From NCBI RefSeq assembly GCF_000003815.2, contig NC_049981.1:27439757-27503756 (forward strand): a stretch of 64,000 nt of DNA, given 5' to 3'. The position numbers and the translations under genes were made by a program. This stretch comes from Branchiostoma floridae. Lineage: Eukaryota; Chordata; Leptocardii; Amphioxiformes; Branchiostomatidae. The notes beneath the pieces were generated by a model. The model searched no databases, was not told the DNA's origin, and saw nothing but the letters and a program-made list of their open reading frames with translations. Below are positions 903 to 57,872 of this stretch, piece by piece (within the stretch, counting starts at the first letter, position 1; each line of letters starts with the position of its first letter).

Positions 903-3765
903 TGTAAGGTACGTATGATGTCGTTCTTCTCCTGTAGTCCGTCTGCAAGTTTCTTCTTCAGATCTTCGTTTTCTGTCGTCAGATCTCTAACCAGAACCTG
1001 TGGTAGTGATAAAAACCGATTAGCTAGCAACTCATCATACCATGCCTGCCCTGTGTGTTGTGTCTTTGTTGTATTGCATTGTATGGCCCAAGAGACGTCC
1101 CTGAACTTAGTGTGTCATCATTACCTTTAAATAAGAAGGTTATGTTTTCGTATCTTTTTGAACAGCATAACTCGAGAAATCATGGATGGATCTTTATGTT
1201 ATTTTGTCCAAATTCTTTTAGCGTTTTCAAGTGGAAACTTACGTGAAAATATAAGATAGAGTTTATTCTTCATAAAAAAGGGCGTTTTATGCACAAACAC
1301 TCTCCTGTCGTGTTTTAGAGTTTTCGTTTACTTGATTTAAATAGGGACAGACCATAAAGGCAATGTGGCACTGCACTAAAATAACAGTGCCACATACAAA
1401 GTACAGACAGAAGTTAAAGTAGTATTTTAGCCAGGTACTCATTTTAACACCTGGATGAAATGAGGAAGGTCGTGCCTTTCCCAAAATGCAAGGGAACAAC
1501 GTCGGGGACAGGGCGAGTATCGAACCCGGGACCTCTAGGTTCCGCACCCACCACTGTGACAGCAGGGTGTTTGTACACCGATAATGAATGTGACATACAG
1601 TTTCAATGTAACGTGTGATTTCCACAATACATGTACATACCGATTGAATGTTGTACTTTTTCTCCATTTGCAGAACCCTGGAGCCGAAGCGTGCCATTTC
1701 GGCGGCCATCTCAGTGGACTTCCTCGGGCCGCCATCATCGTGCAGTGCGGCCTCCAGTCGCTGGGCGTGATCGGACAGGGGCTCGCCTGACACCGGCATA
1801 TCGCTCCACTCTGTCAGCAAGGGCTAGGGGAACGAGAAATACGCGTAATTATAAGGCCATCTTAATTTCATTACATGGATGACATCCGTGCGAACATCAA
1901 TTCTTTGCCGTTTCCAAAAAAAGTTCGACCATACTCTAAATCGTGCAAAGCAGCTGTAAAATATGAGAAAACATGTCATAGATTGTTGCAAATATATCGT
2001 AAAATGGATACTTGTGTCATAGAATTCCAAAGTTATTTTCAATCTTGAAGAAGATATGTTGTTATGTTATTTAGTGTCCGTTATTTTGTATATGTATCCT
2101 TATTTTTGTCATGTGTATGAGGAGAAGACCGAGATAAGCAACTTTGCTTTTTGTCAAATCCTCGTTAAATAAATGTGAATAAAAAAAAGAAGATATGAAA
2201 GAAAAGAATGAAGATTCTATTACTTAGTATATCATTCTCTTTGTATTAGGGCTTTTGTTCAACCTTCCTGACTACTTGATTTTATAATAAAGGCAACGTT
2301 TTTTTTGCCAATTTCTTTGGCTCGCATCAGTTTGGTGGTTACAAGAGGGTGTCATCAATAGAATCAAATCAACATGGCCTAAGATATTTGCAATATCTCC
2401 ATGGTTACTATGTAGGGAAAGTCCATTAATAGTTGTTCATTTGTACAGAAACGCTAGCACAGGCACTAGGTGTTAACCCTGAGGAAATAGTAATATTGTT
2501 GAGCTGATTACTGAGCATAGTTTTTACGCCGTTGCAACGCAAACAAAGTCTAATAAACACGTCTATTTAAAGACCTACTGGATAAATATCATATTACATT
2601 TTGGTGGGCTACAAGAGCTGGAAAAACAGGGTTATATTTTTACTTCCTCTTCCTTCTTCCTTGATTAGAACAAAGTCTAAAGATAGGCGTTCAGCAAACA
2701 GACTTTCTTAGAATGGCAACGTTACGGTTTGTTTATACTCCCTTTCCACTGGGACGACGCACTCTCTCTGAGACCTAGAATTTGAAAAATCGCTCAGATT
2801 GTATGCAGAAAAAAAATCTTTTTACGTCCTTTCAGTCCTTTCAGTCACACTTTTTTAACTTAAGATATACAAATGATGAAATCACAGGTTACACTTATCC
2901 GTTTTAGGTCGCAGTGAGAGCGAAGCGCCATCGCCATCTAGTGGAAAGGGGACCTTGTAAGTACTGGCAAATCTGTGAAACAGACCTGTTCTTCCTCCGA
3001 ACTCCTTAGGGACTGTTCAAGGGACATCATTCCGCTCATGGATAGGTCATTTTCGCCATTCCCTTCGGTTTGATTGATACCCTCGTCGAGCGAGACGAGA
3101 ACGTTTTCGTTCTGGACAGACTCCGTCTTTTCCTGAGGCGGGCTGCCTGATGGAGCGGTTGTCGTCTCTTCGCTAGGGTCGGATGACTCTGTTGTTTGGA
3201 GGGAAAGTTTGGTCGATAACTCGGTCACCTGGTCGCGGAGGTTTTCTTTCTCGTGACGTGATTCGTCCAGAAGAACCCCTTTGACAACACGGAACGGTTC
3301 GATTGTTTTAGATTTTATTTGCTTTTACCACCAAGGGGCCATAGCAACACACATAAACATACATATAGACATAATGAATGCATGCATCTATACTGGTGAA
3401 ATTAGGTATAAAAGTACTGAAAAATATATCACAAATTAATCAATCAACTAAATCAACAGATTCAACATAGTTAAAACACCATCAATACAAGGGCAGATCA
3501 TAAAACGTTGCATATGAATTGATACCAAAACCATAAACCAAATCACCGAAATTGATGAATTTCTGTAAATATTCTTATATAAACCATGACGTCACAGATC
3601 TTTTCCCTTACCTAGAGTCTGCAGTCCTTGCAATCTTGATTTGCAGTCTTCGTTTTCCTGCCGAAGTTTTTCGTTTTCTTGACGGAGTTTCTCGACTTCC
3701 TGAGCGATGTTGACGCTCTCGCCTTGGACTGTGTCATCAGCAGTCTCTTCTTCGTCGTTGTCCAT
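903..3765 (-). CDS. TNIP/ABIN-like coiled-coil protein (TNIP-A), N-terminal exons, 3' truncated by window edge
   Basis: Four coding exons read on the minus strand: 3765-3612 (start ATG, 154 nt), 3278-2965, 1823-1641 and 997-903 (95 nt, phase 2). The gene then continues left of the window. Exon 1 encodes an acidic start (MDNDEEETADD) followed by a coiled coil with repeated LRQENE. Exon 2 is a Ser/Glu-rich linker, and exons 3 and 4 carry coiled-coil segments ending in KYNIQS and TENEDLKKKL. Each exon aligns in order with the complete TNIP/ABIN gene at 25.9-36.1 kb. Exons 1 and 4 have identical lengths and phases in both copies (154 and 95 nt), so this is a tandem paralogue. The AHD1 and UBAN regions that would define function lie outside the window. 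The weak point is the exon 2 donor (CCA|GTACTT), chosen because it keeps phase 0. An acceptor at about 3825 suggests an upstream 5' UTR exon. Expected role by family: ubiquitin-binding adaptor that dampens NF-kB signalling. Confidence 0.8.
1395..1562 (-). repeat. tRNA-derived SINE in TNIP-A intron 3
   Basis: On the minus strand the segment starts with a tRNA-like head whose B box reads GGTTCGATACTC. It is followed by a body with the short words tgtccccgacgttg, gggaaaggcacgac and aatgagtacctggct. This head-plus-body organisation is typical of tRNA-derived SINEs that are common in lancelet genomes. The 3' end is not sharply defined. Confidence 0.55.
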
Positions 3766-3825
3766 TTTCGCTACCCCACTTTCGGCACTTAGAGACCGGC
3801 GGTCTCACGGCACATAAAGACTGGT

Positions 3826-6208
3826 CTGTATTAGAAACATACACATATAACCTTAAGTATAACATGAAGGATGTAGGTTGGTTGCATCCACAGAATTGAC
3901 GTCTGATGAACATTTGAAAGTGCTGTCATCTGGAAGATTTTGGAAAAATGTTATGTTCCACATAAACTTTTAAAGTAGCTATTCAGTGAAAGATCGTAAT
4001 GTTTTCTGGTGACATTCGCTCCAGTGACACTCCATTTCTTAAGAAAGGTAGCCCCCTGTGCCAGCTGATGTTGGTTAAGTGTCAGTCAGAAAAGCCCGAG
4101 CAGTCTTTTCTACTGTAACATCTGCTTGGAGATGAGTCCAGAGATCGTTTTAGCAAGCCTGGCTGGGGTTAGCATTCAATATTCATACTATCTTCTTTAA
4201 GTTTTTTACGTCAGCATTCGCGGACAGAAACTTTCCATTGTTTTATACACATGTTATATGCAGCGTCCTAAAGTAAGAAACTACCCAACCGTACCAATGA
4301 GTGACACAAACATATAAAATGTATGCCTTCTATAATTGAACCTACTTACTTTCAAGGTCATGTTTATTACGTACACGTACTGTGCATGTAGTAGAATGTA
4401 TGAAAGCCAAACTTACCATTACTTGCCCCTATACGACAAAAATTACTTAGATTCCAACCTTATCAAAAATTGTCACAAATACACAAATAGGAATGTGTAC
4501 ACACGTTCCAGTTTTCCCACACATGGTCACACAATGCACACGGAAACTTCCTGGTAGTGCTGTTCTTGTGCCCGGTGTATTTCTGTTCTATGAAAATGCT
4601 TCAAGAAATGTTATCATCGGTGACTTTGGAACACAACACGACGGGTAGCCAGTACCATTTTATGAATATGTTGCCCCCTGGGCCGATGAAACTTTTGCGC
4701 AGTAGAAGTAGAGCAAATATTATTAAAGCATGTTCGGTGGTCCCTTGCTTTCAGTCTACCCACCGTTTTTGAAAGAGGACGCAGAAAAAATAAAACTTAG
4801 ACATTTTCTAATATGCTAACATGTTTTCCCGAGCCGAAAAGAATATGGTTTCTTTAAGTCTATCTAAAAAGAACAACAAAACAAGAGAGATCACTTACGG
4901 TGAAAACTTGAAAACTGAACCCCGTGAGTAGATTTGAAAACTAAAGTTAATCTGAGCGAGAAAATTTCCACAATCGAGCTGTAACAGCGATCCATATGTA
5001 CACTGAACCACTCTATAGCAGCTTATAAACTAGCTGTATTAGCAATAAAACGGGGTTCCAGGCGACTGACGAGCACAGAAAATGAAGGGGAAATCACATC
5101 GTGGACACTTACGCAGAAAACACCACGGATTAAAGTTCCGACATTGTTCGGGTTGAGTGACCAGAAGCTATGAGGAAATGCCCTTGAGTCAACCCGGAAG
5201 TGTGTGTTCGCAAATCTCAGGAGTAAAACGAGCTTGCTTGCACGTAGACATTTATTGTAAACAGAAATACATTTCAAAAAACTGAATTCTAAAATTAACT
5301 TTATAAGATATCAATGTTTATAATGTTGACAGGGTCTTGATATACAGCAATACTTGTACTTTAACTTTAAATATTTTAAATGGAATTTGGAACACGCGTC
5401 TTGATATGGGAGGGGTGACGGGTGGCAGTTACAAATAAACGTAGTGTAAGCTTGTTGACCTAATTCGGGGATTTCCGAGAAAGATACACTAGAGAGAATT
5501 TCGCATGAAATGTTGGGGATATGCAAAATAGCTCTGACACAAATTGCCGATCGCGACCTTCTGTCCCGACGATTCCCGATGGGAAACGAAGGCACCCGAA
5601 GAGCCGAACTCTGTCCGGATTATCTCTGTTGATCAATACAGATGTATAATACAGCCTGTACTGAAATTTTCACAGTGGATTCTTTTGTTCTCACGGTTTT
5701 CGCGGTGAATCACATGGCACAGTATTTTCCATGTATTACTACTGTGATCCAGACTTGTTTCAATCACGAACTTATCGCGAAAACATTTTTGACATTTCGA
5801 CTGCGAAATGAAGTCAATAATTCTACCTATCGTCATATCGATATCGTTGTTGGGAATATTCGTCGCCCAATTCCTACTGACCAGATCATGTTCAAGGCAA
5901 ATGAAGTTCCAGTGGGTTCGCGCACATGAATGGCGAGTTATGAAGTTTAACAGTATTTATATATCTAAGAACTCCAGAGGCGCACAGATAGTCTGCAGAG
6001 ATTGGACTGCTAAAGATGAGAAGAGGATGAGAAGAAAGATAAGATGTCTATCAACCTCAAATAACTCAACCTAAGCTAATGACAAACCAGAACCTAAGCT
6101 TTATTTTACATCGACGATAAAGCAAAAACATAAGACTATCTTTCAGCACCATGTCTTGTTTCGAGTCCCACAATACATTGTTATCCCAAAACAATAATTA
6201 TTCACTAC
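3826..6208. other. Spacer upstream of TNIP-A, no gene recognised
   Basis: No open frame here has flanking splice sites or a recognisable protein family. Around 5650-5810 there are degenerate words (ttttcgcggtga, cttatcgcgaaaac) resembling the GTTCGCGG foldback element found intact at 57.87-58.09 kb, so part of this spacer is probably old transposon debris. Confidence 0.5.
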
Positions 6209-6212
6209 TTAA

Positions 6213-6737
6213 AGGGGCATTCCACTCCAGAAGGGAGTCTTGTTTTCCAATAAATAATGTGTCAATGAATACATAATCAGCCGAAATTTGTGGAAGTCAC
6301 CTTGGGATGAATTACGTGATGTGTGTTTTATAAAACAGTAATGACACTCACTAAACCCATGCAGACCCTACCCATGCATTCCCTATACGCATAGACACTT
6401 TGTTTATCGTACATATTTTCGGAATAAATGAGGTACGCTGAGCACACCGAGAAGGCAACTTGCTCTTAAGATAGCAAAGAATACAAGAACAAGACGAAAT
6501 TTCTTAGCGAACCTGAAATTAGTTTGGTAACCTTACCTAAAAGTTCTGCATTGTATTCAGCCATAGTATTAATTCAATTAGAGGGTACTTGGGGAGTTTA
6601 GTAGAAGACTGAATGCTTTTGAGCCATGCGGAGCAACTGGGTACTTTATCGTATAATGTAAAGTCGTATGCTGTTATCACTTCCTAAAATGAATATCTAT
6701 CGAAAAATAACACTCTCGTGTGGAGTGGAATGCCCCT
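6213..6737. mobile_element. piggyBac-like MITE flanked by TTAA
   Basis: A 525-bp element starts AGGGGCATTCCACTCCA and ends with its exact inverse TGGAGTGGAATGCCCCT. TTAA lies immediately outside both ends (6209-6212 and 6738-6741). TTAA target duplication is the hallmark of piggyBac-type transposition. No transposase frame is present, so this is a non-autonomous copy. Confidence 0.75.
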
Positions 6738-6741
6738 TTAA

Positions 6742-9700: not shown

Positions 9701-9880
9701 ACGTTGTTAATAAACAAAAAGTGATAACGTTATATTCGGTTCATTGTGAAATAAACTCTGAGTACACATTTTCATGTTGGTTTGAAGAGGAGTAAACAAA
9801 ACAGGTGGTTTGCCAAGCTAGTAGTTAAAACTGCAAATAAAACATGAAAAAACATTGAGAAACGACATTGCAAAAGATGA
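6742..9880. other. Spacer between TNIP-A and IL-17 gene, no gene recognised
   Basis: Scattered short open frames occur but none has family similarity, a codon signature or splice context. The only structured item noted is the hairpin at 7426-7486, listed separately. Confidence 0.45.
7426..7486. repeat. Short near-perfect hairpin
   Basis: An 18-bp stem (CAAAGCAGCCAGTATTAA pairing with TTAATACTGGCTGCTTTG) encloses a loop of about 20 bases. The outer word CTCCAAAGCAG resembles the CTCCAAGCAG terminal repeat of the hAT-like element at 18.75 kb, so it is most likely a tiny foldback transposon rather than an RNA gene. Confidence 0.5.
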
Positions 9881-9885
9881 CTTCA

Positions 9886-9895
9886 GGGGAATCCC
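9886..9895 (+). promoter_or_regulatory. kB-type motif GGGGAATCCC
   Basis: The ten bases fit the Rel/NF-kB consensus GGGRNNYYCC. The site lies about 300 bp from the longer GGGGAATCCCC at 10180. Function is inferred from sequence only. Confidence 0.35.
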
Positions 9896-10128
9896 ACTAC
9901 TCATTAACTACACACAACCTTTGTATGGTGAGGAACATACTTTAGTATTTCTGCTGCGTCATGAAAGCGACACGGGACCAACCAAGTCAAGGGGCCAATA
10001 AAAAGAGCACATCTTAAACACATAGCTTCCTGGATTCACAGAGACATACGTGTACGTTCCTGTTTAAGTGGATGTGGTGGTTGTGTGTCGTTTGAAACCA
10101 ACAGGAAGTCCTGACACGAAAGACTCAC

Positions 10129-10190
10129 CTTATATGAACGCCATCTTGGTGGACTGGTGCATAGTGCAAGGGGCGGGAAGGGGAATCCCC
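10129..10190 (-). promoter_or_regulatory. Perfect kB site followed by candidate 5' exon of TNIP-A
   Basis: GGGGAATCCCC occupies 10180-10190, one of three exact copies in the window. Reading away from it on the minus strand come a CCAAGATGGCG word (YY1-like) and a strong splice donor AAG|GTGAGT whose last exon base would be 10129. The layout (kB motif, short stretch, donor) resembles that seen upstream of TNIP-B, and TNIP-A exon 1 has an acceptor at about 3825. It is therefore a candidate TNIP-A promoter and noncoding first exon, 6.4 kb upstream. This assignment is speculative. Confidence 0.25.
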
Positions 10191-12922: not shown

Positions 12923-12932
12923 GGGACTTTCC
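12923..12932 (+). promoter_or_regulatory. kB-type motif GGGACTTTCC upstream of IL-17 gene
   Basis: This is the classical kB decamer, 1.55 kb upstream of the IL-17-like start codon. The same decamer recurs on the opposite strand beside the TATA box at 14.25 kb. Confidence 0.35.
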
Positions 12933-13612
12933 CCACGAAACACCTTGGCATTGACTGTCCCCTCTAAGATTTCACTTTTTCTCTAAGTTTATTCGCTCAC
13001 AATACAGTGTGTTTCATCTTCCTTGATACAGAAACCTCGGAAATCAAAGGGAATATTTCCTTCGCGTGATTTTAGTAACGTTGGAACGGAAACCTGATGG
13101 AGACCCCCTCAACACCCCCACCCTAGGTTGAACTTGAAATCTACTAAAACATACCTTTGATGCAATCTTGCTGTAAGGACCAAAACTACGTACAGACACG
13201 AATAAGTAGCTACATTCATAAAGATGTCGTGTTTCGTTGTGCTTCGTTTCTTTCTTTCTATTATGCTATTACATTGCGTTCTACAAATTTCCTGAGTAAT
13301 AACAGTTTCTTTTCAACGTCGATGATTAACAATACATGGAATGACCACTACAGCCTTGCGCTTCCGGTTTTGGGCATGGATTTCCAAATAAAGTTATTAG
13401 ATTGTACATATGTGTTTTGTGAGGAAACTAGTAGGAAAGCCTATTATAGTTTTGACTTGACACAACAAGTTCAAATACAAACCACGTCACTTTCTCTTGC
13501 GTGGGAAAAGGTAAATTGTTGAAGTGAAATTGAGACTCTCCTAAGGAACGTGTTTACATTTCATAAAAAGACAAAAGAAGAAGAATAAGTTGAAGCCGTA
13601 AGTAACAAACCA

Positions 13613-13622
13613 GGGAATTTCC
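13613..13622 (+). promoter_or_regulatory. kB-type motif GGGAATTTCC upstream of IL-17 gene
   Basis: The bases match GGGRNNYYCC and lie 0.87 kb upstream of the IL-17-like ATG. A single match of this consensus is expected by chance every few kilobases; it gains weight only from its neighbours. Confidence 0.3.
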
Positions 13623-14248: not shown

Positions 14249-14267
14249 GGAAAGTCCCAAGTATAAA
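14249..14267 (+). promoter_or_regulatory. kB motif plus TATA box: IL-17 core promoter
   Basis: GGAAAGTCCC (inverse of GGGACTTTCC) at 14249-14258 is followed four bases later by TATAAA at 14262-14267. The IL-17-like start codon is 217 bp downstream, which leaves room for a 5' UTR of about 190 nt. The arrangement suggests a Rel-inducible core promoter. Confidence 0.5.
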
Positions 14268-15677: not shown

Positions 15678-15718
15678 GTCACGACCACTACTATCCCCCT
15701 CGACCATAACCTCTGCTC

Positions 15719-18738: not shown

Positions 18739-18746
18739 ACCTTAAG

Positions 18747-18853: not shown

Positions 18854-18855
18854 AC

Positions 18856-19690: not shown

Positions 19691-19964
19691 ATGGCGATGA
19701 CAGCCGTTGAGAGCCCTGAAGTCTCTGTGAGTGGCAGGAAGTGTCCAGAAGCGCGGAAGATTCCCAGGGTGTCGTCACTGGTGCAGAAAGTAAAGAAGCT
19801 TTCCAGACAGGCGAGAGACTACCGGGTCATCCGCACCGCCTCATTGATTCTGGCATGGTTTTGTATGGTGAGCTGTTACTCGAGCAGTATTTGCAATTCC
19901 AGTTTTTTTTATAACTAAAGGTGCCACCAACACGCGCATATGCATATTTATTTGGAGACGCCGC

Positions 19965-20030
<66 letters not shown>

Positions 20031-22012
20031 ACACCATGTACACACCATGTACACACCATGTACACCATATTAACGTTACATTTTCTGTTTGTTTCATTGA
20101 TCTTTTTAGTGTTTTTTTTTTCAACAATTTTACAGGGTCTGTACGTTACTATCGTGGGACCTACTATGATCGACCTGAAAGACAGGATCGGTGTCGACTA
20201 CGAGGAAATCTCGCGAGTTCTCGTGTCCCACACCGTGGGGTACTTCCTGGCCACCGTGACTTGCGGCATCTTCCTGGACTTCCAGCCCAAGTTCGCCTAC
20301 GGGGTGCTGGGATCTGCCTTCTTTCTCGCGGGGGTGGGGACGGCGGGGACACCCTTCACCACCTCCCTCGGGGGACTGGGCTTCCTTCAGCACCTGGCGG
20401 GATGGGGACACGGATTCACAGACGCCGGTACACACCATGACTACTTGCAGTCACATGGCTATTAGTCCGCCATGCTAGTGGCTTTATACACGTACAGACG
20501 CGTGCATTAGATTAGCTCTACGCCCATTTCATTAACGAAATCCCATACAGTTCAACTTTGGTTTCGATATTCCATATGGTCCAGTGGTTAGGATTCGGCA
20601 CTCGCACCCCCAAGTCCAGGGTTCGACCTTTATTCCCGATGTGGGGAAGTTTTGGACATAGAGGCATATGTTCTGCTTCCATTACCATGCCCAGAACACC
20701 TACGTGCCTAACTTAATTGTTTGCTTCAACATTGATCATTTCACCCTTAATATCTAAAAGCAGAATATGATCTTTTAGTATCATTTTGTAAACTGTGACA
20801 AGATTCAATCGCATTTTTTTGCTATCCAAAAACTGTTTAGACAGTTGGAAAAAAATCTTCATTTAAAAAGTTCTTTACAATAATAATATCAGAATTTCTT
20901 GCATTTATGAATTCATTTATCCATCTATCTATCTATCTGTTTATGTATTGGATTTATTGGTAAAATGTATTTTTTTCTTTCCCAGCCGGCACGGTGGTTT
21001 GTGCGCGATTGTGGGGAGACAAGGCATCTGCACCTATACACGCAATGCACGCTGGGTATCCAATCGCTGCCTTCATCGTCCCGCTGATCGTCATCCCCTT
21101 CCGTCTCCGGACCGCCCAGCGGCAGTCAACGGTACTACAGCCCCTCCTCTCACCGTGGAAGAGGCTTGGAGACTGTCTAAGATACAGTGGCCGTACGTCG
21201 GCGTGTCCGTAGCTCAGTTCACCATATGTATCTTATTCGTCTTTTACCAGTACAAGGAGTTAGTCAGTGATTACAAAAGTAAGACGAACACGGCCCCAAA
21301 ATCGTTCTCTGCCTTTCTCTCTCCTGGTCGCTTCCTGAAAGGAAAAAGCAAGAAAGCACTTTTCCTACTGTTCTTGCTTTTTCTGTACTATGTTGTTCTT
21401 AAGTTGGGTCAGAATGCCTTTATTCAGTACATGGTGTCCTACATGGTGGAGACCAACATGTTCAGCAAGCCGGGCGCCAGTGTAGTCTACTCCGGCTATT
21501 GGATCAGTTACGCCTCCATGCGGTGCGTGTCTATTGCTGCAGCAGCCTTCGTGCCCATCCGCATCATGTTGCTCTCAGAAATCATCGTTCTTTTCATTTC
21601 CGGCATTATGGTTGCCGTCTGGGGTGCGACCGATAAGACCGTATTCTGGGTTTTTACTTGTATCCTGGGTCTTTGTACGTCCCCTATTTTTCCTGGAGGC
21701 ACTGCTTGGGCCAACAGGTATCTGGACGCCTCCTCTATTGTGTTTGCTATCTGTATTGTTGGGGCATCGGTAGGAGGCACGGCTTCCAGCTACATTACTG
21801 GTTACCTGTTTGAGTACGTGGGTCCTCGGTCAATGCTGTATTTCTTCATGGGTTGCGGCTGCGCTCTCTTGCCCACGTTTGTTGTTATGCAGATCACAGT
21901 ATCTTCGCTTACCGCAAAACGGTCTGACATGGAATTGGAAACTCGACAAAGCAAGGGTTTAGAGATCATAGATGATCATGAGGAATGTAAAACGATACTT
22001 ATCCGGGAATGA
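19691..22012 (+). CDS. MFS transporter, MFSD4/NaGLT1-like, with an apparent frameshift
   Basis: Exons 19691-19867, 20136-20427 and 20986-22012 are joined by GT-AG introns. Exon 1 gives a basic cytoplasmic N-terminus leading into the first membrane helix. Exon 2 encodes GLYVTIVGPTMIDLKDRIGV and GYFLATVTCGIFLDF, resembling the first helices and loop of the MFSD4B sodium-dependent glucose transporter as I remember it. Exon 3 starts with TVVCARLWGDKASAPIHAMH, matching the family's WGDK...HALHF element, followed by the helix PIAAFIVPLIVIPFRLR. The frame then breaks between about 21100 and 21150: the upstream frame hits a stop at 21210, while the frame two bases on runs open from VNGTTAPPLTVEEAWRLS through the remaining helices to GCALLPTFVVMQITV and a C-terminus ILIRE. 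One missing base explains it. It may be an assembly error, a null allele or a young pseudogene. Expected role: plasma-membrane solute (sugar) transport. Confidence 0.78.
19967..20033. repeat. (CA)n microsatellite in MFS intron 1
   Basis: About 33 CA units with one interruption, followed by short tandem copies of acaccatgt up to about 20068. Confidence 0.95.
20571..20647 (+). pseudogene. tRNA-Glu-like pseudogene or SINE head in MFS intron 2
   Basis: GGTCCAGTGGTTAGGATTCG is nearly the A-box half of tRNA-Glu, and GGTTCGACC is a B-box-like word. The ends TCCATAT and ATGTGGG can still pair. The anticodon stem is broken, the anticodon position reads CGC rather than CTC/TTC, and the T arm has extra bases, so it is not expected to be a working tRNA. 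Confidence 0.5.
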
Positions 22013-23362: not shown

Positions 23363-24670
23363 ATGTTGCTCTCAACCATTCTGCTGGCCCACACCTTTAT
23401 TTCTGTGTGTTTCTTGGGCACCACTACTTCAAAAGACATGCGGATGGACGTCGTGTTTCCACCAGTCGTCGAACCGAGCGACTCCACCCTACCAGACGGT
23501 CACCTGTTACCACTGGGCTGCCAGAGAGAGCCGGACGGGCCCGTCAAAGAGTACGCGGAGCCCTTGACTCCGATAGAGTTCTGGAATCTTCACGCAAAAT
23601 ATTACGTGCCCCTTGTTTACAGGCAAGCCATAACCAAGGCCCCCGCTGTCACCAACTGGCAGAATGATGAGTACATCCGTGAGAAATACGGGGACTTAGA
23701 CGTCTTGGTGGAGAAGAAAAACGAAGATCGTGGCGCTCGTCCGACGAGGATGACCCTGAGCAACTTTCTAGACAACTACCAACTCGAAGACTGGTACGTG
23801 GTGTCCTTGCTACCCGACCCCATGAGAGCAGAGATGCAGGTCCCTCGTTCGCTCCTCTGTGGGACGTTCAAGAAGAGCATCCTGGAGTCCAATCTGTGGC
23901 TGTCCGCCGGTGGAACGACGTCCCTGCTCCACTACGACGCCGACCACAACCTACACTGTCTGATATCCGGGCGGAAGGATTTCATCATGATCGATTCAAA
24001 GTACGATGACCAATTGGTCATGGCTGATAAGAGGCAGTACTCCGGATCTAGTTTCTCTCACCTGGACATGGACAGGATCGACCTCCTCGCTTACCCACAG
24101 GTGTCTGACGTCCCGTGGACCTGGGCAACTCTTCTCCCCGGGGATTGCATTTTCATCCCCTCCGGCTACTTCCACCAGGTCAGGTCCTACGGGCGCAGCG
24201 TTGCCGCGACCATCATGTGGGATCCTGTGAAAAAGTTCAACGACTCAGACTGTGCGACAGCAGACATCGACACGTACACGGCACTGAGTGACGTCCAGCT
24301 CCAGTGGACGTACAAGAAGGGGGACAAGTCCATCGACATGGGCTTCTTCAACGTGGAGATCGAGCTGAGAGAAGCCCTTCTGAACCTGATGGCACAACGG
24401 AACAGCACGAAGCTGACAAAGGAACTGTTTACTATCTTCTACGAACAAGTCGTGGTCGATGAAGACGAAGATGGTGACATAACAGAGGGGCACATGAAAG
24501 TTATCAATAAGATGTTTGGAATTCTGGACAAAAATAAGACTGGGTACCTGATGCGCCAAGAGCTGGAGAGTCTGGACATTGAGGTTCTCAAAGATGTGGC
24601 CCGTATCATAGACGAGCCGCACGGGCCTGTCAGAGAGAATGATGACGTCAACAAACGTGACGAACTTTGA
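23363..24670 (+). CDS. ER-lumenal JmjC-domain protein with EF-hands and C-terminal RDEL
   Basis: A single intronless frame of 435 residues. Residues 1-20 form a signal peptide (MLLSTILLAHTFISVCFLGT), and the last four residues RDEL form an ER-retrieval signal, so the protein should reside in the ER lumen. The middle is a JmjC/cupin-8 domain. Its HxD iron ligands are H190 and D192 in TTSLLHYDADHNLHCL, with K205 as a plausible 2-oxoglutarate contact and the distal ligand H271 in CIFIPSGYFHQVRSYG, so the Fe(II)/2OG site looks intact. The C-terminal part has a Ca-binding-like loop DEDEDGDITEGH (366-377; its last position is H, not E) and a good EF-hand loop DKNKTGYLMRQE (389-400). The likely activity is protein hydroxylation of an unknown ER client. 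It resembles invertebrate JmjC proteins often labelled by similarity to tRNA wybutosine-synthesising or HSPBAP1-like proteins, but the ER signals argue against those roles. The absence of introns among multi-exon neighbours suggests a retroposed origin. Confidence 0.85.
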   Translation: MLLSTILLAHTFISVCFLGTTTSKDMRMDVVFPPVVEPSDSTLPDGHLLPLGCQREPDGPVKEYAEPLTPIEFWNLHAKYYVPLVYRQAITKAPAVTNWQNDEYIREKYGDLDVLVEKKNEDRGARPTRMTLSNFLDNYQLEDWYVVSLLPDPMRAEMQVPRSLLCGTFKKSILESNLWLSAGGTTSLLHYDADHNLHCLISGRKDFIMIDSKYDDQLVMADKRQYSGSSFSHLDMDRIDLLAYPQVSDVPWTWATLLPGDCIFIPSGYFHQVRSYGRSVAATIMWDPVKKFNDSDCATADIDTYTALSDVQLQWTYKKGDKSIDMGFFNVEIELREALLNLMAQRNSTKLTKELFTIFYEQVVVDEDEDGDITEGHMKVINKMFGILDKNKTGYLMRQELESLDIEVLKDVARIIDEPHGPVRENDDVNKRDEL

Positions 24671-25911: not shown

Positions 25912-28900
25912 CTACTGGTGACCCCAAGGAAAGTATGTTTTCCCATGATCCTCGACGGCCTCATCTCTTGGTGGGGCGTCATCGACAACATCCTGGCCGA
26001 GTGTTCGGGCATATTGTCGAGGGATAAGTCTGCCGTGCTGAATAAAAGAGAACATGACATTTTATTTATAGAAAACTAACTAAAAAGTTAAAGAAGCTAT
26101 TATGCTATGGTTACATTTGCACCGGTGCTCACAGGGGATGTGGCCCCGGTTGGGCTCTGAAGCCACAAATTTGTCCTCTCGGCGTTTTCACGATTGTGGT
26201 ACGGCATCTGTTTGTCGCGTCTGTTTTGTTAATTTCAACTCCAAGTTTTAAAAGAATTCCGGGGACGAACAGTTTCCCAAGATAGTCAGGTAGCCAAAGG
26301 GTGTCCCACGGGGCCACGAAGGGGTCACGCTCGAATGTGAAAAAAAAAAAAACAAACTACCCGTTGGGGCTCCTTTTTCCAATTGTGACCGTAGCATTAG
26401 ATTTTTAATCATGGTTAAAAAGATTAAAATCACTTCCACACAAAACGTTAAAAAATTGTTCTTTCAATTGAAATTCATTGAGCGGTCTTCTCTCAGCGGT
26501 CTCACCCTCTACCCCAAAGGGGGATGTTGTTGACGAAGCAGACATTTTTTGACAGCCAGGATCGACCTATTCACAAAGAAACCCATTCTCACCTGGCGGT
26601 ACCTGTCAAACTCCCGCTGCTGCAGCTCGTGAGGAGTGGGCGGGTGGTGTGGCGGGGGGTACTGGTAGTTCTGGTAGGCAGGGGGGTCTTCACGATAGGG
26701 GGGTGGGGCCTGGGGCCGGTACAGTTTGGGTGGGGGAACATGGCGCTGTTGGGGAGCAATGTTGTAGTGATGGTCTTCACCAACACCCTGTAGGAACAAG
26801 AAGTATGGGCAAATCTGTTAGTTTTTGCGTATTGGAGCAGGCAGATCAGGATTTAAAGATTTCCTTTGTCTCTCTTTGAATGAAACAGACAGCATTTAAA
26901 CGTACTGCTCCCAAGCAAGAGGTGAGCAACCAAGGTCTCCAACACCAACATTTGCGATGCTGTACTTCATAAGATATGGCTTGTCGCTGGCGACGCTGCA
27001 TTGTGTCTTCGTGTGGGTATTGCTACAACGGCCAGTCAAAACGGACAGAATCTATAATACCTGTGGCATTTGTCCCAACTGACGCTGCAGTCGTTCCTTG
27101 TCCGATCTCTCTCTCCTGAAATCTTCTTCGTACACACGGGCCTGTAGACAAACATTATAGATTAAACATTTCATTTTTCATATCAGACTCTATTTCTGCC
27201 AGGAATGCAACTTATAAAAATATAGTTGCTGTATACTCCTAACAACGAGGGCAAAATATAGAATACATTAAGTGTCTGTATAAATTTGCACAAGTTCGTA
27301 ATTTAAAAACTTTATATAGCCATGTTTGGCAAAGCCCAAGTGAGACAAACCTGTTGGGTAAGAGTGTCCACGTGCATCCTGAGGGCGGCAATTTCGTCTT
27401 TCAGCGTATCCTTCTCTCCCTGCATCCTCTCCCTGTCCCGGCGTTCCATCTCAAAATCCTCGCGAAAGGTCGCCACCTGAGCCCGAAGAACTTCAACCTC
27501 CGTCCGGAGTTGTTCAGCGGATTGGGGTTGAGCCGGTTGGCTCGGTGGCTGGGCGGGACGAGCCGGGGCCTGCTGCCGCTCTGCCGCTTGGACAGCTGGA
27601 GGATTCAGGACGGCAATGCTGGAAGCCTCACCGAGAGCCTGTTTTGGAATTAACATTACACTTTTACATAATCGTTCAGGTGAGAACCACTAAAATAATC
27701 ATTGGCGGTAGCACTCATAATTCATTGTACCAAATTGCTCCCTAAAGGCAAGTCATTCCAAAGATAGAAGAATGTCGTGGCCCATTTGGACTTGCAGATA
27801 TTTTTAAAAAACTTATACCTCGGAAAAATAAGAAATGTAAAATGCCTGAAAAATGAAGACTTGTATCAATCTTTTGGCAAAACCATTTAGATGTGATCTG
27901 GCCAGTCTCTACATTGGCACACCCAAAGACAAATCAATGCAATGGAATGCTTTAAGCTTAAGTACCTCATTCAGTCTCCTGATCTCTGCCTCCAGGTTGC
28001 CCCGCTGCCGCATCATGTCTGTGATCTGGTTCTCCAGGAGAGTCACCCGGGCGGACACGGTGTCCCCGCGCTGCTTCTCCTGCTGAAGATCTAACACAGC
28101 CTTGTCTTTCGCTCTCTGTGGACGATAGTTAGTCCCGTATGAATAGTTTATTCTGGATATGGCCGTCGTCAATCTTGTCATATGTTATTAATATAGGAGA
28201 GCGAGAAGCACAAGCATGAGTGAAGACTGAAAGCCCACAGGCAGATGCCTTCATCCCGAAGATGGTATCCAGGTTATGCCATAGACGATACTACATGCCT
28301 GATGTCAATTAGATTAGTTTTACCATGACCAATATTGACCGACGGGGGCATGTATGTAGATATTTCACAGTTTTTGTCAAATAATTTAAAAATATAAATT
28401 TGTAGGATGCAAAACACAATCACCTCTTCTTCTTCAATGCGCTTCTTGGCCGACACCAGCATACTGTCGATGTCTCTCTGTCTCTTCTCCTCGGCGTTGA
28501 CGAGTTCAGCATTCTGCCGCCTCGTCTCTTCCTGCCTTGTCTCCATCTCACGAACCTTCTGCCCCATGTCTGCCTTCATGGCCTTGTATTGGACGTCCCA
28601 CTGCTTGTTCACTTCTAGAATCTGGACGGCACAACAGTGGTGCTGGTATCACAAACTTATGCAGCTAATGAGCTCGCGCTAAATGCTGATTAGCTCTCTA
28701 GATGTCGGAACGCGCACTGAAGTTGGTGGGGACCCCCGCTGACACGAATACTGCTGACTTGTCGGAGAAATTTTGCTTGCCATGGACTACTGGACTACGA
28801 CAATAAAAATTACATCTAGACACCAAAAGACTGTCAACCATCTAGGCATAGGCTCCGCAGAACTCCGGAAAAAGTCTAGATCGTTATTCAGGGTATGGTC

Positions 28901-31900
28901 ACACATGGTGGGTTCCCTGGCGACTTTTTGCCGTCGAAAACCACTTGCTCCTGGAATGTCCACATCTTGACCACATGACGACCCCCAGACATTCCATAGG
29001 TAAGGCCCCATGCTCGCCTTCCCAGATTCCCACGCTAGGAAGACTCCTATCATCTGGAATGCCGGGGCTTGTCTTAAAACCAGAGCTGGAATCTAACATC
29101 TAATCTAACTACGTCTGGAGCTGGTTACCGCCAAATGGCGTTATCTTGGCCCCATGACGACTTGGCCCCCTTTCCCACGCTAGGGAGACTCATAGGGGGC
29201 CTTTCGTCTGGATTGCCGGGGCTTATCTTATTAGAGCCAGAGCTGGAATCTAACTACATCTGGAGCTGGTTACCGCCAAATGGCGTCATAGGACTGATCT
29301 ATCTTCTTTCACAAAACTTACCTCTTTTTTCTGACCTTCTAGTTCTTCGATCCTCTTTCTCAGCTCAGCGACGAGTGGAGCCTGATCAGTCGAACCCACC
29401 GATGACTTGACGGGAACGGCGCACATTTTGGACTGCTCTGGTTCTGAACGCTACAGAGAAGAAACGTGAATGATACCATTTAGAATCACAGTTCTAATAT
29501 CTACGTCTATAAGACCTGCTCCAGCAAGCGGTCTGTAACATTCATCGTGCGGTGAATTTACAACAGAAAATTGACGGAATTCTTGGGACAGCTGTACGTG
29601 GTTATGTCGTATAAACTTCAGCTGCCCTGCGACGAAAAGGGTTGTCTTTCCCGACGGACGACGACACTCACTCCCTGAACATCTTAAAACAAAAATGTTT
29701 TCTCGTATTGGGAGCCCCTCGCACGTCATTACCAATTTGCAACCAACTTCCCCGATCGGCTATTTCCATCTTCCATTTCCTGACCAATGAGAAAACTTCC
29801 TCCAAGCCTAGTGTTGTTAGCCTCTGTCATTGGTTTTTCTTCTATTTCCTGACCAATGGGAACCTTCCTCTAATGCCAGTGTTGTCAGACTCTGTCATTG
29901 GTCTTTCTTCTGTTTCCTCACCAATGGGAGCCGTTCTTCAAATTTCTGACCGGGTTTCCGGAATCGATGGAGTGGGCTGGTGGGCTGGGCTATTGTCCCC
30001 TTTTCGGGGCCCTACTGACTTCTAGCCGGTGGGAGACCCAGTGATGAATATCTTTGTCCTCCAGCACTAATGTATGGTGGTTAATCACATGAAGACTTAA
30101 GGTTTGAAACGTTGGTAACTGAATTTTGAAGTGATAATTCTAGTAGAGAATCTACCATGTTTCGCATTGGAAAGTCAATTTGGTACCCCCCCCCCAAAAA
30201 AAAAAGGCCATTTGGGTAGGACGGAAAAGGGAAATGGGAAGCGTTAATTACCATGAGGTGTTTTACTGACGACACTTGTACTAGGTACCGCGGTAGGTAT
30301 CAGGCAAACATTGCTGGAAGCAAAGTTGCTATTTTGGTCACTGACTCATCGGGGTATTAACCAGCGTAAGCAAGCCAAAGACAAAGGAAAATATCATAAA
30401 CGTCTTACGTTCAACCAGGGCATGCAAACTCTTGAAACTAAGACCCGGATAAAATAATCTCTGTGGGTTTGAGCGCCTTTACACATGCTTAAACTTTACA
30501 TATCTGATTTTGTGCAAAAGTCAAAGACAAAAGTCAACGTCCTTTAAGTTGTTGGAGCACCATATGGGGGGTTTTAGAAAGGATACCTATTTGTGTATGA
30601 TGACTTCAGGGATTTTCCATGTTGATGGGGATTCCCGTGAAACGTCTTACAACAACTGAGACGACATTTGCGCGATCGCGACAACTGCAGCTGTAACTAA
30701 CATATCGTTTGCGTCCACAACTTGAAGCAGTGGATTTGCGTCGATTTTCCCGTGTGTTTTCTCCTGGACTGAGTCTTGTAGGCTGTACGCCTATGACATG
30801 TTTTCTTTGACTCGCGGAGTGTTCTTACTACCAGAGGCTAGGGGAAGGAGTGGTGGTGCTAACGCGCACAGGAACGACCGATACACCGGCATGTCGTTGA
30901 CTGGGGCGATCGGGCTGAAACCCGCCGCGTTGGTATGTCAGCACTTCCCGCCAAAACTCTCGAGCAGGACACGTCGCCGAGAAAGACAGCCCATATGGTG
31001 ACTAGCAGCGCGTTGTTAGCCGTACCTGCCGACGACTCGACAGAAACCCCGCACATCGTCGACTGTTCTCACTTCGAATGTTCTGCCGAGAAAACTATCT
31101 AGAGTGATTAAAGCCATGAATCACAGTGTGCTTCACCAATACTTCGTGTTGGACAAAGACGTCTACAAACAAAGACGAATGGTCTGCAGAACTGACTAAC
31201 AACTTTTCCCAGGGGAACACCCTTTGTCATGTTGGCCCACAAGAGACAGCGCCATGCCACACTTGACCATGGTTACCAAGGACATTATTCTTTAAAATAA
31301 CGTCTTCGATGTAATAACCGACAAAGGATTCGCGTTCAAAACTTGAAGCAGCTGAGTTGTCTGGATTTTTACAAGATCTACTCTGGACTGAGTCCAGACA
31401 ATGCGCCTTAGATAATTTTTTCTGGACTCAACTAAATCAAAACCCACGTGGCAGTTTTTTTTACCTTCCGGGTGCCTTTTTCAAGACTACATTTTCGTCT
31501 CAGCCTATCCTTGAGACAAGCAGGAGTTATAAGAACATGTTCAACAGCTGCTGTAGGTGGGTTCTAGGTATTCATATGTACGTGAGGTATCGATGTCTCT
31601 GGCATGTACCGAATTTTAGCTTCGTCCAAAGGAACGTTGGTAGTGATTTCTTTTGGCGCAATGCCACCTTTGTCTTCATGTAGGTACAAGTGCGCAATTT
31701 TCGAGATATACACTGTCACTGTTGCTATCGACCAACTTGCTGACAATTCGAGCTGTATATCAAACTATAGGAAGTTAATCGTTGTCATTTTTTTCTAACA
31801 GACGCAGCCTCACACATTTTCCAGCACGTCTCCAGCATTTTGCTATATGTAGTTTGGAACAAAAGAACGACATCTTGTTTTTAGGAACACCACGTTTTGC

Positions 31901-34900
31901 TTTGCGTCGTCGTCTTAAAGGTAGTTTTGCCTACTTTCCTATGGACGAAGCCTGCCATATCAGTGACATTTCACCTTACCTTCACGCGAAAATCATCAGC
32001 AAAATGCACGTTTTGACGTTCACATTTATCACAAAAAGTACGGATTATCTCATTAATATGTACACGCTCTTTGTCATGTCACTACCGCACATATGACGAT
32101 TAAGCAAATCAGTGCAAACTTACGACGTTGCCAACTTGATGTTCTCGGCAAAGAGCCTCAGTTAAAGATTCGAACTCCTCAATAGGATGACAAAGCGGCC
32201 CATGGCGACAATAAAAGCCGTCCATGTCCTGTATATCTGGAGAGCTTTCTAACCTTTTCTACCAAACAACATCGTGGCTTAAAAATAAGGCGGGGCTTCC
32301 CCGGTCTCATTAGTTTATACTTCAACGCGAACCAATGGTGTGTTCGCAAAAGGTCATACCGAAACAATATGCAAAGTAAAGGGGTCGACGTGCAATTTAT
32401 TGTGCATTTCTTCTTTTGACTTCTTCAACATAAACAAAGGTGAGATATTGTTGTTTTAAGACGTATTCGGCGAACAGGTGTCGTCAAATGCATGGTTTTG
32501 GCAAATTTACTTCTTTTCCTTTCGATATCCAGTCTACTGCGCAAAGCTATCCCGCGTAAGGCATGCGTGTAGGCCACGGGATAGGGTACAAAGACATGCA
32601 AGGAGTATCTCAGATGGCCAACCCGCTCGTAGGCAGAAAGTAACGTTCTTATACCGACAAGGCTTCCTGTGGACATGGCAGTATCGGTGTTGCGCTAAAA
32701 TCTCCCTACACGGAATTTTTGGAACTAGGTCAGAATAGTTCCCAGCTACTCAACCGTTGTTTTTATTTGATATTTCGGCATTTCTGTAGTTCAGCATGCT
32801 CGCACAACACTCTTTCTGTTCATTTTGATGAAAATATTCCAACATTCTTTTTCATAGCAAGACAGTTTTCTGCTCTACCTAGACAAATAAATGGTTCTCA
32901 TTCCATATGGTTCTCTCTCGATCATCGTCATGCCAATATGAAACCAATTTTGAAGTTAGACAAGAGGAGCCTGAAACTGCTCTGACATCGGTTTGAATCA
33001 AACTCCACATGTTTGTACTTAGATTGACCATCTAGAGTCATTTCTGAGAAATCCACACGCATGCATGGCTGACAAGTACCAAGCACGGCTGACCAATACC
33101 CCGCAGACTGCACATAAAGTTGAAAGGAAGAAATTAGTTATTTATTCACCTGGAAGAATGTAACATCATTGCTATTTCCGTGAGAGACGTGTTGTCCTCA
33201 AAAATAACACCCTAACCTATATACTAGTAAACCGGAACATAGTGTTCTAGATACAAATGTAGGAATACAGAGGAGAGGGCAAAAGGTATAACCGTCGGCC
33301 ACAACAACTCTCGGTGCCTGTCTTCACTATCCATGAAGTATCCTGCTCTCATCTATATTCTACATCATACATGTGGCTTACCCTCACCTGTGTGTCTGAT
33401 AGGTCAGCGGAAGTGACCATCTCGATGGGAGAGAAGCCCCGGCCCAGGCTGTCCTGTGTGGCCTGGAGGTGACTGATTTCCTGCTTCAACAAGTAGTTCA
33501 GCGCCTTCAGATCTTCGTTCTGTTTTCTGTGATCAAATAGGCATCTTTGAATATCATTACAACCAAACATGTTTTGATAATGTTATTTCTGTTTTATGTT
33601 GGTCACATTGACATGAAACCTAGGCTTGAACATATATCCCAGTGCATGTACTTTTAATAACTGTTCTTCTTTTTTACACAATTAGTACAAACCTGAGCTC
33701 TACAATCAAAGCATCTTTTCCCTCCTGTGTGGCGGCGAATTCAGCCTTCAGTCTTTCATTCTCCTCGGACATGCTCTGGATAAGGGCCTGAAATAATGCA
33801 ATTTCGACAATTCAACTTGATGTTAGAATGAAATCGTCTGAAGTGCAAACAACGTTCTATTTTTTGTTGTTGTTGTAAACAACAGACTTTCGGTTTCACA
33901 CCATAAAAGACCTACCTTAAGTTGAATTCTAAAATAATTTTTTTAAAGCATGTATTCAAATATTATACAATGATCTCTAAAAGTTTTAGTTATATATAGT
34001 GTTCTTTTACCAATCGCTGCTACTGGTGGGTACAACCTAATGAGAAAATTTTAATGTACGAAAGTGGGTACTCTCGTTCCCCACCTCCTGTATGTTGTAA
34101 GCGCGCTCTCTCCTCATGACGTCGACGGCGAACCGCGCCAGTGTGCCGGCCACGCCCGACCGGTCACTCCCGGCCCCCAGCGCCGCCTCCAGGTCAAGTA
34201 CCTGTCGCGACAACACCGGGCTGTCCTCCCGCAACGGGGCTGTGATGTCCTGGAGAAAGGAACAGAAAGCTTTCCATATTGATGTCGATACTAAATACTT
34301 GCAGTAAAGGGCGACGAAATACTCTTCCATATATTGCTACGGTAGCTTTACAACCGCCAATTCTATCACTGTCGGAACTTTTTCATGTGCAGTTCTAATG
34401 TTTATTGCGATAAGACGCGGATATGATTTTGTTACATTCAACAGCTGATCAACCGATAGTTCGTGGTAAAACAAACCATTTATTATGAAATGATAAAGAG
34501 TTTTCTGCATTTATGTGTTCTAATGCGCAAAGGTTGTGGTACCGAAACAAGCTGATGGATAAAACAATGCAAGTAGTAAGTCCTGTTGTTACATATCTTA
34601 ATACGTTAAAGCAGGGCACATATATAGTTTCTACTCGACGAATACAACTGTATAAATAGAACACAGTTTAACATACTGGCGACATGGCTATATAGCTATA
34701 GTTAGAACTCCACTATTACCTCAGTCCATGGATATACATCGCATATGATTTTCTTTCTATAGTACTACAAGAACCGTGCATTTTCTTAAGGCAGTCTTTT
34801 TACACAAACAATGTGTCTTTCTGTACATGAGTCTATTTATTTTTCAAGTACTACAGTGAGTTAATGATATAACAAACCGCTCTCAGCTCGGGTTCCCAGC

Positions 34901-36135
34901 TAAGCGTCCCCTTGGATGACATGGTCAGTTCACTACTCTCCTCTGAGGACACAAACACGAACTCCTGGTTTGGGTCTGTCTCTTCGGCCACCGACTCTTC
35001 CTTGGTCTCGGTCTCAGTCTCTTTAACGGATTCGGATTTCACAGCTTCTTCTGTCTGTGGTGATTTTGTGTCAGGACTCTTTCCACCTTCCTCTGAGGTT
35101 TCCGGCTTGGTGTCCTCGCGAGTTTCGGGAGTGTGTTCGCCCGACGACTCGCCGTTGGATCTCAGTGACAGTTTCGATCTGAGTTCGTCGACCTGGTTTC
35201 GTAGTCCGTTTGCCTCGCATTTTGTGTCATGTAGGATTTCACCTGTTTTAGAGTATAAAGTTTCTAATTCGTATCAATTGCCCCGAAACTATTGAGTATG
35301 CTAATGTTAAGTACCAGGCTGAAGTTACACTCCAACCGCTAGATGACGCTTTTGATGCCAAATGCATATGAGTCATTGGAAATTCCCTTGTCGCATGGGA
35401 AGCACCGAACGTTCAGAAAGAAAACAAGTATTTGGGTGTGGTTGTGCAACGCCTTGGAAGTTTGAAAACATGACCAATTTTGCTTTCCTTATTATTTTCG
35501 GAAAAAAATGAAGCATTCGGGATCAAATTTGCTTAGTTTCTGTTGAGTCCATAATTCACACAGACGACATAAGACACAAAGCATTCCTCATATCTTATCA
35601 CGATGTATACATAGTTTACGTAATTTGACTCCTATGCTATCTTCATGTATTTGTCGTTCCATTGTTTCCTTATTCTGCATTTTACATAGTGATAGTAAAC
35701 AATGGGCGCCTTGTCATTTCATCGAATCATCGAAGGCATCATATCAGGAATATATTCTAGAACTCTTCAGAACTCATCATCCTTTCTACGATCAAAAGAA
35801 GTGCTCCAGCCGTCAACTATATTGTTTTAACGTACAAAAACTAAATTGTTTGAGCATGCATGTACAATATTCCCTATAAGCTCCAAGCAGATGTTAGTAG
35901 ACAGAAAGTTCTTTGGCACACAACTTTATTAGTGCCAGTAACGTACGTACTACTACAGTGTACAGCGTCAATATTACTTACCCAACACTTGAACACCCTG
36001 TACCCGCGACAGTAACCGCTCGTTCTCTTCGCGGAGCCTCTCGTTTTCTTTCCTCAGCCGCTGGGCTTCGGGGTCGTAAGAGGGGGGTGGGGGGTCCGTC
36101 CCGGGGGGTGGGGTCGTCTTCGTCTCCGTCGCCAT
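25912..36135 (-). CDS. TNIP/ABIN-family ubiquitin-binding NF-kB regulator (TNIP-B)
   Basis: Twelve phase-consistent exons on the minus strand: 36135-35982, 35242-34878, 34249-34085, 33787-33693, 33526-33388, 29450-29322, 28621-28424, 28115-27966, 27638-27351, 27141-27061, 26787-26593, 26037-25912. They encode 694 residues. Start: MATETKTTPPP. Residues 20-50 are a coiled coil (LRKENERLREENERL) and 52-173 an acidic linker. Residues 350-465 match ABIN homology domain 1 (ILEVNKQWDVQYKAMKADM ... KRQRDIDSMLVSAKKRIEEE ... AEIRRLNE), known in human ABIN-1 for A20 binding. Residues 518-545 hold the UBAN ubiquitin-binding motif (FREDFEMERRDRERM), and a second UBAN-like motif, YEEDFRRERSDKERL, is at 565-579. 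The tail 589-653 is Pro/Tyr-rich (PPPKLYRPQAPPPYREDPP), as in ABIN-1, and the end is YFPWGHQ. Family role: cytosolic adaptor that binds linear or K63 ubiquitin and restrains NF-kB. Intron 5 (about 3.9 kb) holds a decayed exon copy and kB motifs. Confidence 0.93.
28950..29275. repeat. 157-bp imperfect tandem duplication in TNIP-B intron 6
   Basis: The words cagagctggaatctaac (29081 and 29238), tctggagctggttaccgcc and cccacgctagg(g/a)agactc recur with a period of 157 bp. It is confined to the intron between exons 6 and 7. Confidence 0.7.
29776..29935. repeat. 68-bp tandem repeat carrying CCAAT/ATTGG boxes
   Basis: Units start at 29776, 29844 and 29912 (TTTCCTGACCAATGGGA type). Each full unit holds one CCAAT and one ATTGG, giving five boxes in 140 bp inside TNIP-B intron 5. 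The spacing is exact; any role in transcription is a guess. Confidence 0.7.
30609..30636. promoter_or_regulatory. Pair of kB-type motifs in TNIP-B intron 5
   Basis: GGGATTTTCC (30609-30618) and GGGGATTCCC (30627-30636) both fit GGGRNNYYCC and are separated by eight bases. A close pair inside a gene whose family members are NF-kB targets suggests an intronic enhancer. Confidence 0.4.
30997..31078 (-). pseudogene. Decayed duplicate of TNIP-B exon 6
   Basis: The minus strand reads EQST-MCGVSVESSAGTANNALLVT, lining up without gaps with EQSK-MCAVPVKSSVGSTDQAPLVA in the real exon 6 (29450-29322). Identity at the DNA level is roughly two thirds. An in-frame TGA just before EQST, loss of the LRKRIEELEG part and the absence of a phase-0 donor argue that it is not spliced into the normal mRNA. 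A start codon with a donor-like GCAG|GTACGG would end in phase 1, which does not fit exon 7. Confidence 0.55.
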
Positions 36136-57838: not shown

Positions 57839-57872
57839 GCACTTCTTTTACATTTAACATCAAGTGTTGACA

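Follow-up and report, generated by a model that had tools for sequence, protein, structure and literature searches.

The stretch of Branchiostoma floridae DNA analysed here (64,000 nucleotides of contig NC_049981.1, positions 27,439,757 to 27,503,756, hereafter the window) carries an IL-17 cytokine gene and two genes of the TNIP/ABIN family, designated TNIP-A and TNIP-B, and raises the question of whether these genes constitute a jointly regulated immune unit or are neighbours by descent alone. A sequence-only reading of the interval 903..36135 had proposed that two tandem TNIP genes flank the IL-17 gene and form an inflammatory module with it. According to passages in the respective sources, the mammalian IL-17 receptor complex includes A20 and ABIN1 (PMC7459424), the human TNIP1 promoter contains NF-kB sites and is under NF-kB control while IL-17A triggers TNIP1 degradation (review, PMC6192141), and knockdown of an IL-17 receptor in sea urchin larvae results in lower tnfaip3 transcripts (PMC5457136). 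Judging from the gene models and the motif content of the window, we lean, by a little, towards an immune block in which IL-17, a divergent TNIP paralogue and a second TNIP three genes on are wired by clustered NF-kB sites.

Clustering of kB motif matches

The kB consensus GGGRNWYYCC, sought on both strands with adjacent register shifts merged (25 raw matches becoming 21), was found 21 times in the 64 kb window; in its strict and relaxed forms it represented two of the four patterns of the first motif scan. None of 400 column-permuted motifs reached this number (mean 3.4, maximum 10), order-2 Markov sequence generated in 2 kb pieces gave a mean of 4.2 and a maximum of 13 in 200, and the canonical half-site spacing of 2 was the highest of the 16 spacings from 0 to 15 (21 vs 5-13). 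Among the 60 arrangements of the inner columns which keep GGG..CC, the kB order was likewise the highest, with 21 matches as compared to 17 for the next.

When the window was divided at gene boundaries, 19 of the 21 matches fell in the TNIP-A/IL-17 intergenic region (9 in 10.7 kb), the IL-17 gene (2 in 1.2 kb), the TNIP-B gene (5 in 10.0 kb, with none of the 21 in a TNIP-B exon) or the region upstream of TNIP-B (3 in 4.9 kb). The part holding an MFS transporter-like and a Cupin_8/JmjC gene has 1 in 10.4 kb (at 15719, immediately 3' of IL-17), the DCTN4 gene 0 in 11.7 kb and the right end 1 in 11.3 kb, and these three parts, with counts close to those expected from the permuted motifs (0.55 to 0.62 each), serve as an internal control. 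This gene-bounded count is given first because the 15.8 kb boundary, used below to delimit an immune half, was set after site 15719 had been seen. Both the enrichment of motif matches and its location are established, and the module claim of the sequence-only reading gains from them in that kB sites are dense near IL-17, TNIP-B and the shared intergenic region with the neighbours near background. These kB-rich surroundings suggest that the IL-17 and TNIP genes may be switched on together. Several of the matches recur, as GGGACTTTCC is present twice (12923 and 14249), GGGAATTTCC twice and GGGGATTCCC four times.

Of ten other transcription factor consensus patterns (AP-1 excepted) none splits comparably between the halves. 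As alternative signals, neither ISRE-like (interferon-stimulated response element) nor AP-1 matches had a pattern comparable to that of kB; the former number 10 in the window, and the 5 kb on the 5' side of TNIP-A contain 3 of them, more than any of 100 shuffles gave (expected 0.40). A comparison of A/T and G/C centres (21 and 4) was discarded, as each of the 4 matches with a G/C centre counts among the A/T ones as well.

Identity of the IL-17 and TNIP genes

The IL-17-like gene which the sequence-only reading had placed between the two TNIP genes is, by its predicted product, a real one. The Pfam IL17 domain was recovered at E=1.1e-9 (39 bits vs a cut-off of 24), and IL-17F (E=0.0011) tops a list of 24 PDB matches (E up to 1) in which every entry is of the IL-17 family. 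In agreement with that family, the translation displays by eye the four cystine-knot cysteines in ARCxxxxC and VACTC, aligned with those of IL-17F (PDB 3jvf), and a start which by eye is hydrophobic; the gene has two introns, as do 29 of 34 vertebrate IL-17 genes according to part of one study (PMC4517768). In contrast to the family, the protein is short and by eye lacks an LNSVPIY-like motif 3, and no subtype is assignable; broad IL-17 phylogenies are called uninformative in a passage of the sea urchin study (PMC5457136).

TNIP-B is supported as a TNIP/ABIN gene with a predicted UBAN ubiquitin-binding core. Its model comprises 12 exons from 36135 to 26100 and specifies 683 aa, or 689 aa with an exon 6 start at 29450, the latter being preferred because the acceptor at 29450 looks better and the frame is kept; the whole-protein Pfam and PDB searches were performed on the 683-aa model. 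The gene had been placed at 33.7-36.1 kb, and while the four exons concerned were right, it continues to 26100. Pfam returned CC2-LZ at 5.1e-12 (46.5 bits, cut-off 35.3), with three other families below their own cut-offs (best CENP-F_leu_zip, 9e-7), and the nine PDB matches are headed by four to TNIP1 (5.2e-10 to 2.7e-6), with optineurin, TNIP2 and NEMO ranking next; for the N-terminal half, searched to E=0.1, the PDB gave no match. In the AHD1-UBAN construct of TNIP1, the portion on the AHD1 side aligns with TNIP-B, which has in common with TNIP1/ABIN-1 (PDB 7eal, 7eao, 6n5m) the DFxxERxDRERM UBAN core and, on the AHD1 side, an EIxRLNxALxEAxSI stretch, while a VNKQWD stretch upstream is one which we take to resemble ABIN-1. 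The Asp matching D472 of human TNIP1, in the UBAN pocket, is retained, and a Glu aligns with E425 of AHD1, the numbering having been matched by manual residue count in the TNIP1 alignment; in human TNIP1, as stated in a passage of PMC11940065, D472 binds ubiquitin and E425 belongs to AHD1.

TNIP-A is homologous to TNIP-B on the basis of the alignment of their predicted proteins (86 of 245 columns identical, or 35%, and 103 bits, with composition correction and the low-complexity filter off), of shared phases and of two equal exon lengths. In the exon models, exons 1-4 of both genes have identical phases (in 0,1,0,0 and out 1,0,0,2), so that the earlier statement of a common exon order, common phases and common exons of 154 and 95 nt proved accurate, as did its coordinates and lengths and the same, minus-strand orientation of both genes. 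Exon borders were hand-placed at GT donors and AG acceptors, and their canonical form is thus partly by construction. The match exceeds coiled-coil resemblance, as TNIP-A reaches at most 20.8 bits, as compared to 103, when aligned with the coiled coil of the C-terminal TNIP-B half, which serves as an internal control for such resemblance. An identity of this level (35%) makes an old duplication probable. TNIP-A alone gave 19 weak Pfam families, 0 of them above its own cut-off, and, with E up to 1, no match in the PDB; its identity is supported via homology to TNIP-B, those of TNIP-B and IL-17 being supported directly, and the three gene identities proposed earlier are in this way retained.

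The window is taken to hold no additional copy of IL-17 or TNIP, as tblastn (E up to 5) returned the modelled exons, cross-matches between TNIP-A and TNIP-B, and weak remaining matches. A piece at 31083-31000 resembling TNIP-B exon 6 and located 1.6 kb upstream of it (tblastn E=0.028; DNA score 35, where 200 mononucleotide shuffles reached 27 at most) is read as a decayed exon copy, and the remaining matches were at E=0.17 or worse.

A second UBAN-like core in TNIP-B

The motif EDFxxERxDxER occurs twice in TNIP-B at a distance of 42 residues, which is exactly six heptads, and TNIP-B is possibly a tandem-UBAN ABIN. A 33-residue piece with the second core gave 12 PDB matches, the top four being to the TNIP1 UBAN (6.2e-5 to 3.2e-4), followed by TNIP2 (0.044), optineurin (0.17) and then chance-level NEMO and amphiphysin; its Pfam CC2-LZ match is at 6.7e-6, yet at 26.9 bits lies under the cut-off of 35.3. 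Compared with the TNIP1 core as given in the PDB matches, the first core is identical at 15/24 residues and the second at 12/24, and core against core the figure is 10/24. TNIP-B would differ from TNIP1 in this second core, 42 residues on; the aligned TNIP1 piece 6n5m has Glu-Glu where the Asp-Phe of that core would be, but it ends at that point. Full-length TNIP1 is not known to have a second UBAN core.

Some hundreds of bases ahead of TNIP-B exon 6, an exon with an in-frame Met, seven CCAAT/ATTGG boxes were observed within approximately 220 bp (29707-29925), some of the array falling inside a tandem repeat of 68 nt; this array is possibly an internal promoter.

Gene order and neighbouring genes

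IL-17, on the strand opposite to that of TNIP-A and TNIP-B, is positioned head to head with TNIP-A with 10.7 kb between them (Table 1). Six-frame domain scans of 4500-14300, 15700-19600 and 36150-40950 returned 0 families save a chance MFS18 match at 0.027, so that TNIP-A and IL-17 are apparently immediate neighbours. The description of IL-17 as flanked by two TNIP genes holds for TNIP-A but overstates the closeness of TNIP-B: the MFS-like and Cupin_8/JmjC genes intervene, TNIP-B is three genes along from IL-17, and only TNIP-A directly adjoins it.

Table 1. Features of the window, with positions counted from its first base
Feature	Position	Strand	Evidence or remark
TNIP-A (ABIN-like), N-terminal four exons	903..3765	-	exon model and TNIP-B homology; runs past left edge
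TNIP-A exons	3765-3612 (154 nt), 3278-2986 (293), 1823-1641 (183), 997-903 (95)	-	
kB matches, TNIP-A/IL-17 intergenic	5467, 6214, 6727, 9886, 10180, 12923, 13099, 13613, 14249		consensus match
kB site GGAAAGTCCC, three bases, then TATAAA	14249..14267	+	235 bp before IL-17 ATG
IL-17 gene, 3 exons, 153 aa	14484..15592	+	Pfam IL17, PDB IL-17F
IL-17 exons	14484-14498, 14938-15137, 15346-15592	+	five-codon first exon provisional
kB matches, IL-17 intron 1	14807, 14829		consensus match
kB match just 3' of IL-17	15719		consensus match
MFS transporter-like gene, ends approximate	19691..22012	+	MFS_1 6.7e-6; 25.7 bits, below Pfam cut-off 33.4
Cupin_8/JmjC gene, one open frame, C-terminus KRDEL	23363..24670	+	Cupin_8 3.1e-33
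TNIP-B (ABIN-like), 12 exons, 689 aa preferred model	26100..36135	-	Pfam CC2-LZ, PDB TNIP1
TNIP-B exons 1-4	36135-35982 (154 nt), 35242-34878 (365), 34249-34085 (165), 33787-33693 (95)	-	
TNIP-B exon 9, first UBAN core DFEMERRDRER (predicted)	27351..27638	-	48-aa piece alone matches TNIP1 UBAN, E=2.4e-7
TNIP-B exon 10 (own 81 nt exon), second UBAN-like core DFRRERSDKER	27061..27141	-	PDB, Pfam
kB matches, TNIP-B introns	28728, 30609, 30627, 32292, 35378		consensus match
kB matches upstream of TNIP-B	36685, 37634, 40553		consensus match
DCTN4 (dynactin p62), model incomplete	41020..52735	-	PDB dynactin subunit 4 E=4.1e-154; Pfam 6.7e-25
BolA-like gene, at least 2 pieces, divergent from DCTN4	54589..56662	+	domain scan

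DCTN4 adjoins TNIP-B directly upstream, and it and the BolA-like gene lie outside the interval 903..36135. Domain scans of 53000-61000 on the plus strand and 53000-62500 on the minus strand gave BolA only, plus a chance PF05248 match at 0.031. A tRNA-Gly (GCC) gene is present at 17670-17740 on the minus strand, and the DCTN4 exon region displays a tandem duplication of approximately 200 bp at 43305-43908 (unit 197 nt, 92% matches). The Cupin_8/JmjC protein has a weak EF-hand match, and its KRDEL end is one which we take as a motif of possible residence in the endoplasmic reticulum.

Discussion

In the explanation favoured here, that of an NF-kB-wired immune block, we infer that microbial or cytokine signalling would activate NF-kB/Rel, and that Rel would bind the kB sites in the TNIP-A/IL-17 intergenic region, at the TATA-like IL-17 promoter, and within and upstream of TNIP-B, with induction of these genes. 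Secreted IL-17 would in turn amplify NF-kB by way of its own receptor with Act1 and TRAF6, and the TNIP proteins, if they function as their sequences predict, would bind the resulting ubiquitin chains by their UBAN and recruit A20 by their AHD1, thereby closing a joint negative loop; the proximity of the genes may carry a benefit of its own. Their linkage would probably have been inherited from a chordate ancestor as opposed to newly assembled. Control of NF-kB by A20 and ABIN in amphioxus is reportedly the subject of Yuan et al. (PNAS, 2014), who are said to describe two ABINs; by its title alone, that system resembles the present one in ABIN-mediated NF-kB inhibition in a basal chordate. Searches of one open-access library yielded no publication on IL-17/TNIP linkage and, with narrow search terms, none on the kB sites or on a tandem UBAN; for amphioxus ABIN they gave only entries in reference lists.

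Several observations weigh against this explanation, and the first concerns descent, since inherited linkage alone is a sufficient reason for the proximity on which the module claim had relied. According to this alternative, which is a serious possibility albeit one to which we give less than even credence, the window retains an ancestral chordate block in which each gene is a separate NF-kB target and proximity has no function. It is favoured by the position of DCTN4 beside TNIP-B and by the intervening MFS-like and JmjC genes, which lie inside the block and are not evidently immune. It is also favoured by the human gene order, as IL17B, DCTN4 and TNIP1 all occur in the 43-row gene list of the 5q commonly deleted region (PMC4671954, Table 1), so that three of the six gene families identified in the window (TNIP, IL-17 and DCTN4) recur in one human interval, and ZNF300P1 separates DCTN4 from TNIP1 within one neighbourhood, its upstream side holding DCTN4, MST150 and ZNF300 and its downstream side GPX3 and TNIP1, as given in a passage of PMC3895665; IL-17B is assigned to chromosome 5 in part of another study (PMC4517768). 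In the 5q list the trio is scattered among approximately 40 other genes, and no MFS, JmjC or BolA name stands in it. Because human IL17B, DCTN4 and TNIP1 share one 5q interval, the IL-17/TNIP/DCTN4 linkage may be inherited, the amphioxus IL-17 being a putative IL17B counterpart; the interval was examined on account of these three genes and does not constitute a blind test. Inherited linkage as the whole explanation leaves the shared kB-rich TNIP-A/IL-17 intergenic region unexplained, and it relies on the human interval and on that putative counterpart. It may hold together with the module and does not exclude it.

A second set of points concerns TNIP-A, whose AHD1 and UBAN, if present, would lie past the left edge of the window. 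Its part of the window (3.8 kb) has 0 kB sites, the nearest being 1.7 kb from the TNIP-A ATG. That TNIP-A is a truncated or decaying copy devoid of AHD1/UBAN is unlikely in our estimation. Bases 1-902 are without a recognisable fifth exon, the search with the rest of TNIP-B by tblastn in bases 1-1000 having given a best match (E=0.33) which overlaps the known exon 4 and matches wholly to the left of it only at E of 2.6 or more, and in TNIP-B exon 5 begins 166 bases past exon 4. Against decay, all four exons are open with phases as in TNIP-B, and 902 bases are short as compared to introns at this locus (TNIP-B intron 5 is 3.9 kb).

The third set concerns the kB matches. The 60 GGG..CC arrangements average 5.0 matches in the immune half vs 1.7 in the other, and at half-site spacings 0 and 1 the immune half likewise predominates (11:0 and 12:1). 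Of these spacing-0 and -1 matches 7/11 and 10/13 overlap strict kB sites, and many arrangements match the same sites; a broader GGG..CC tendency is nevertheless possible, because 6 of 7 independent matches at these spacings still lie in the immune half. AP-1 matches, 12 in the window, are split 9 to 3, and the GC content of TNIP-B (0.447) is the highest of the parts measured. The kB matches at 6214 and 6727 coincide with the two ends of a transposon-like element (6209-6741; 437 nt enclosed by a 48 nt inverted repeat of 83% complementarity and bordered on either side by TTAA), which is probably a miniature inverted-repeat transposable element (MITE). As part of it these two matches are to be discounted, and since its ends match the kB consensus the element could have spread kB sites. 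Without the MITE pair 19 kB sites are retained, 7 of them in the TNIP-A/IL-17 intergenic region, with 17/19 in the gene-bounded immune parts and 18/19 in the immune half as delimited by the 15.8 kb boundary. That the excess is due to repeats or local base composition and not to selection, as the inverted-repeat ends and the GGG..CC skew could indicate, is quite improbable given this persistence of 17/19, the flanks of the kB matches being alike at no more than 14/30 (save 6214/6727 at 19/30 and 30609/30627, which are 18 bases apart, at 16/30), and the GC content of the TNIP-A/IL-17 intergenic region (0.401) being below that of the MFS/JmjC part (0.424).

The observations on the kB sites, the human interval and TNIP-B may be combined into a more speculative proposal, which we hold to be rather doubtful. 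The locus would represent a pre-vertebrate NF-kB regulatory unit of which human 5q is the dispersed remnant, with IL-17 and its TNIP brakes linked and jointly kB-driven as early as the chordate ancestor, and TNIP-B would be a tandem-UBAN ABIN reading longer ubiquitin chains, while an internal promoter in intron 5 (the CCAAT array at 29707-29925 and the kB pair 30609/30627) may give a short AHD1-UBAN isoform from the exon 6 Met.

If the kB sites are used, a single visible layer of NF-kB control would govern, within approximately 40 kb, a cytokine together with both copies of its brake, and the IL-17/TNIP association on human 5q would predate the vertebrates. A tandem-UBAN ABIN, if true, would provide a natural variant for understanding how these inhibitors read chain length.

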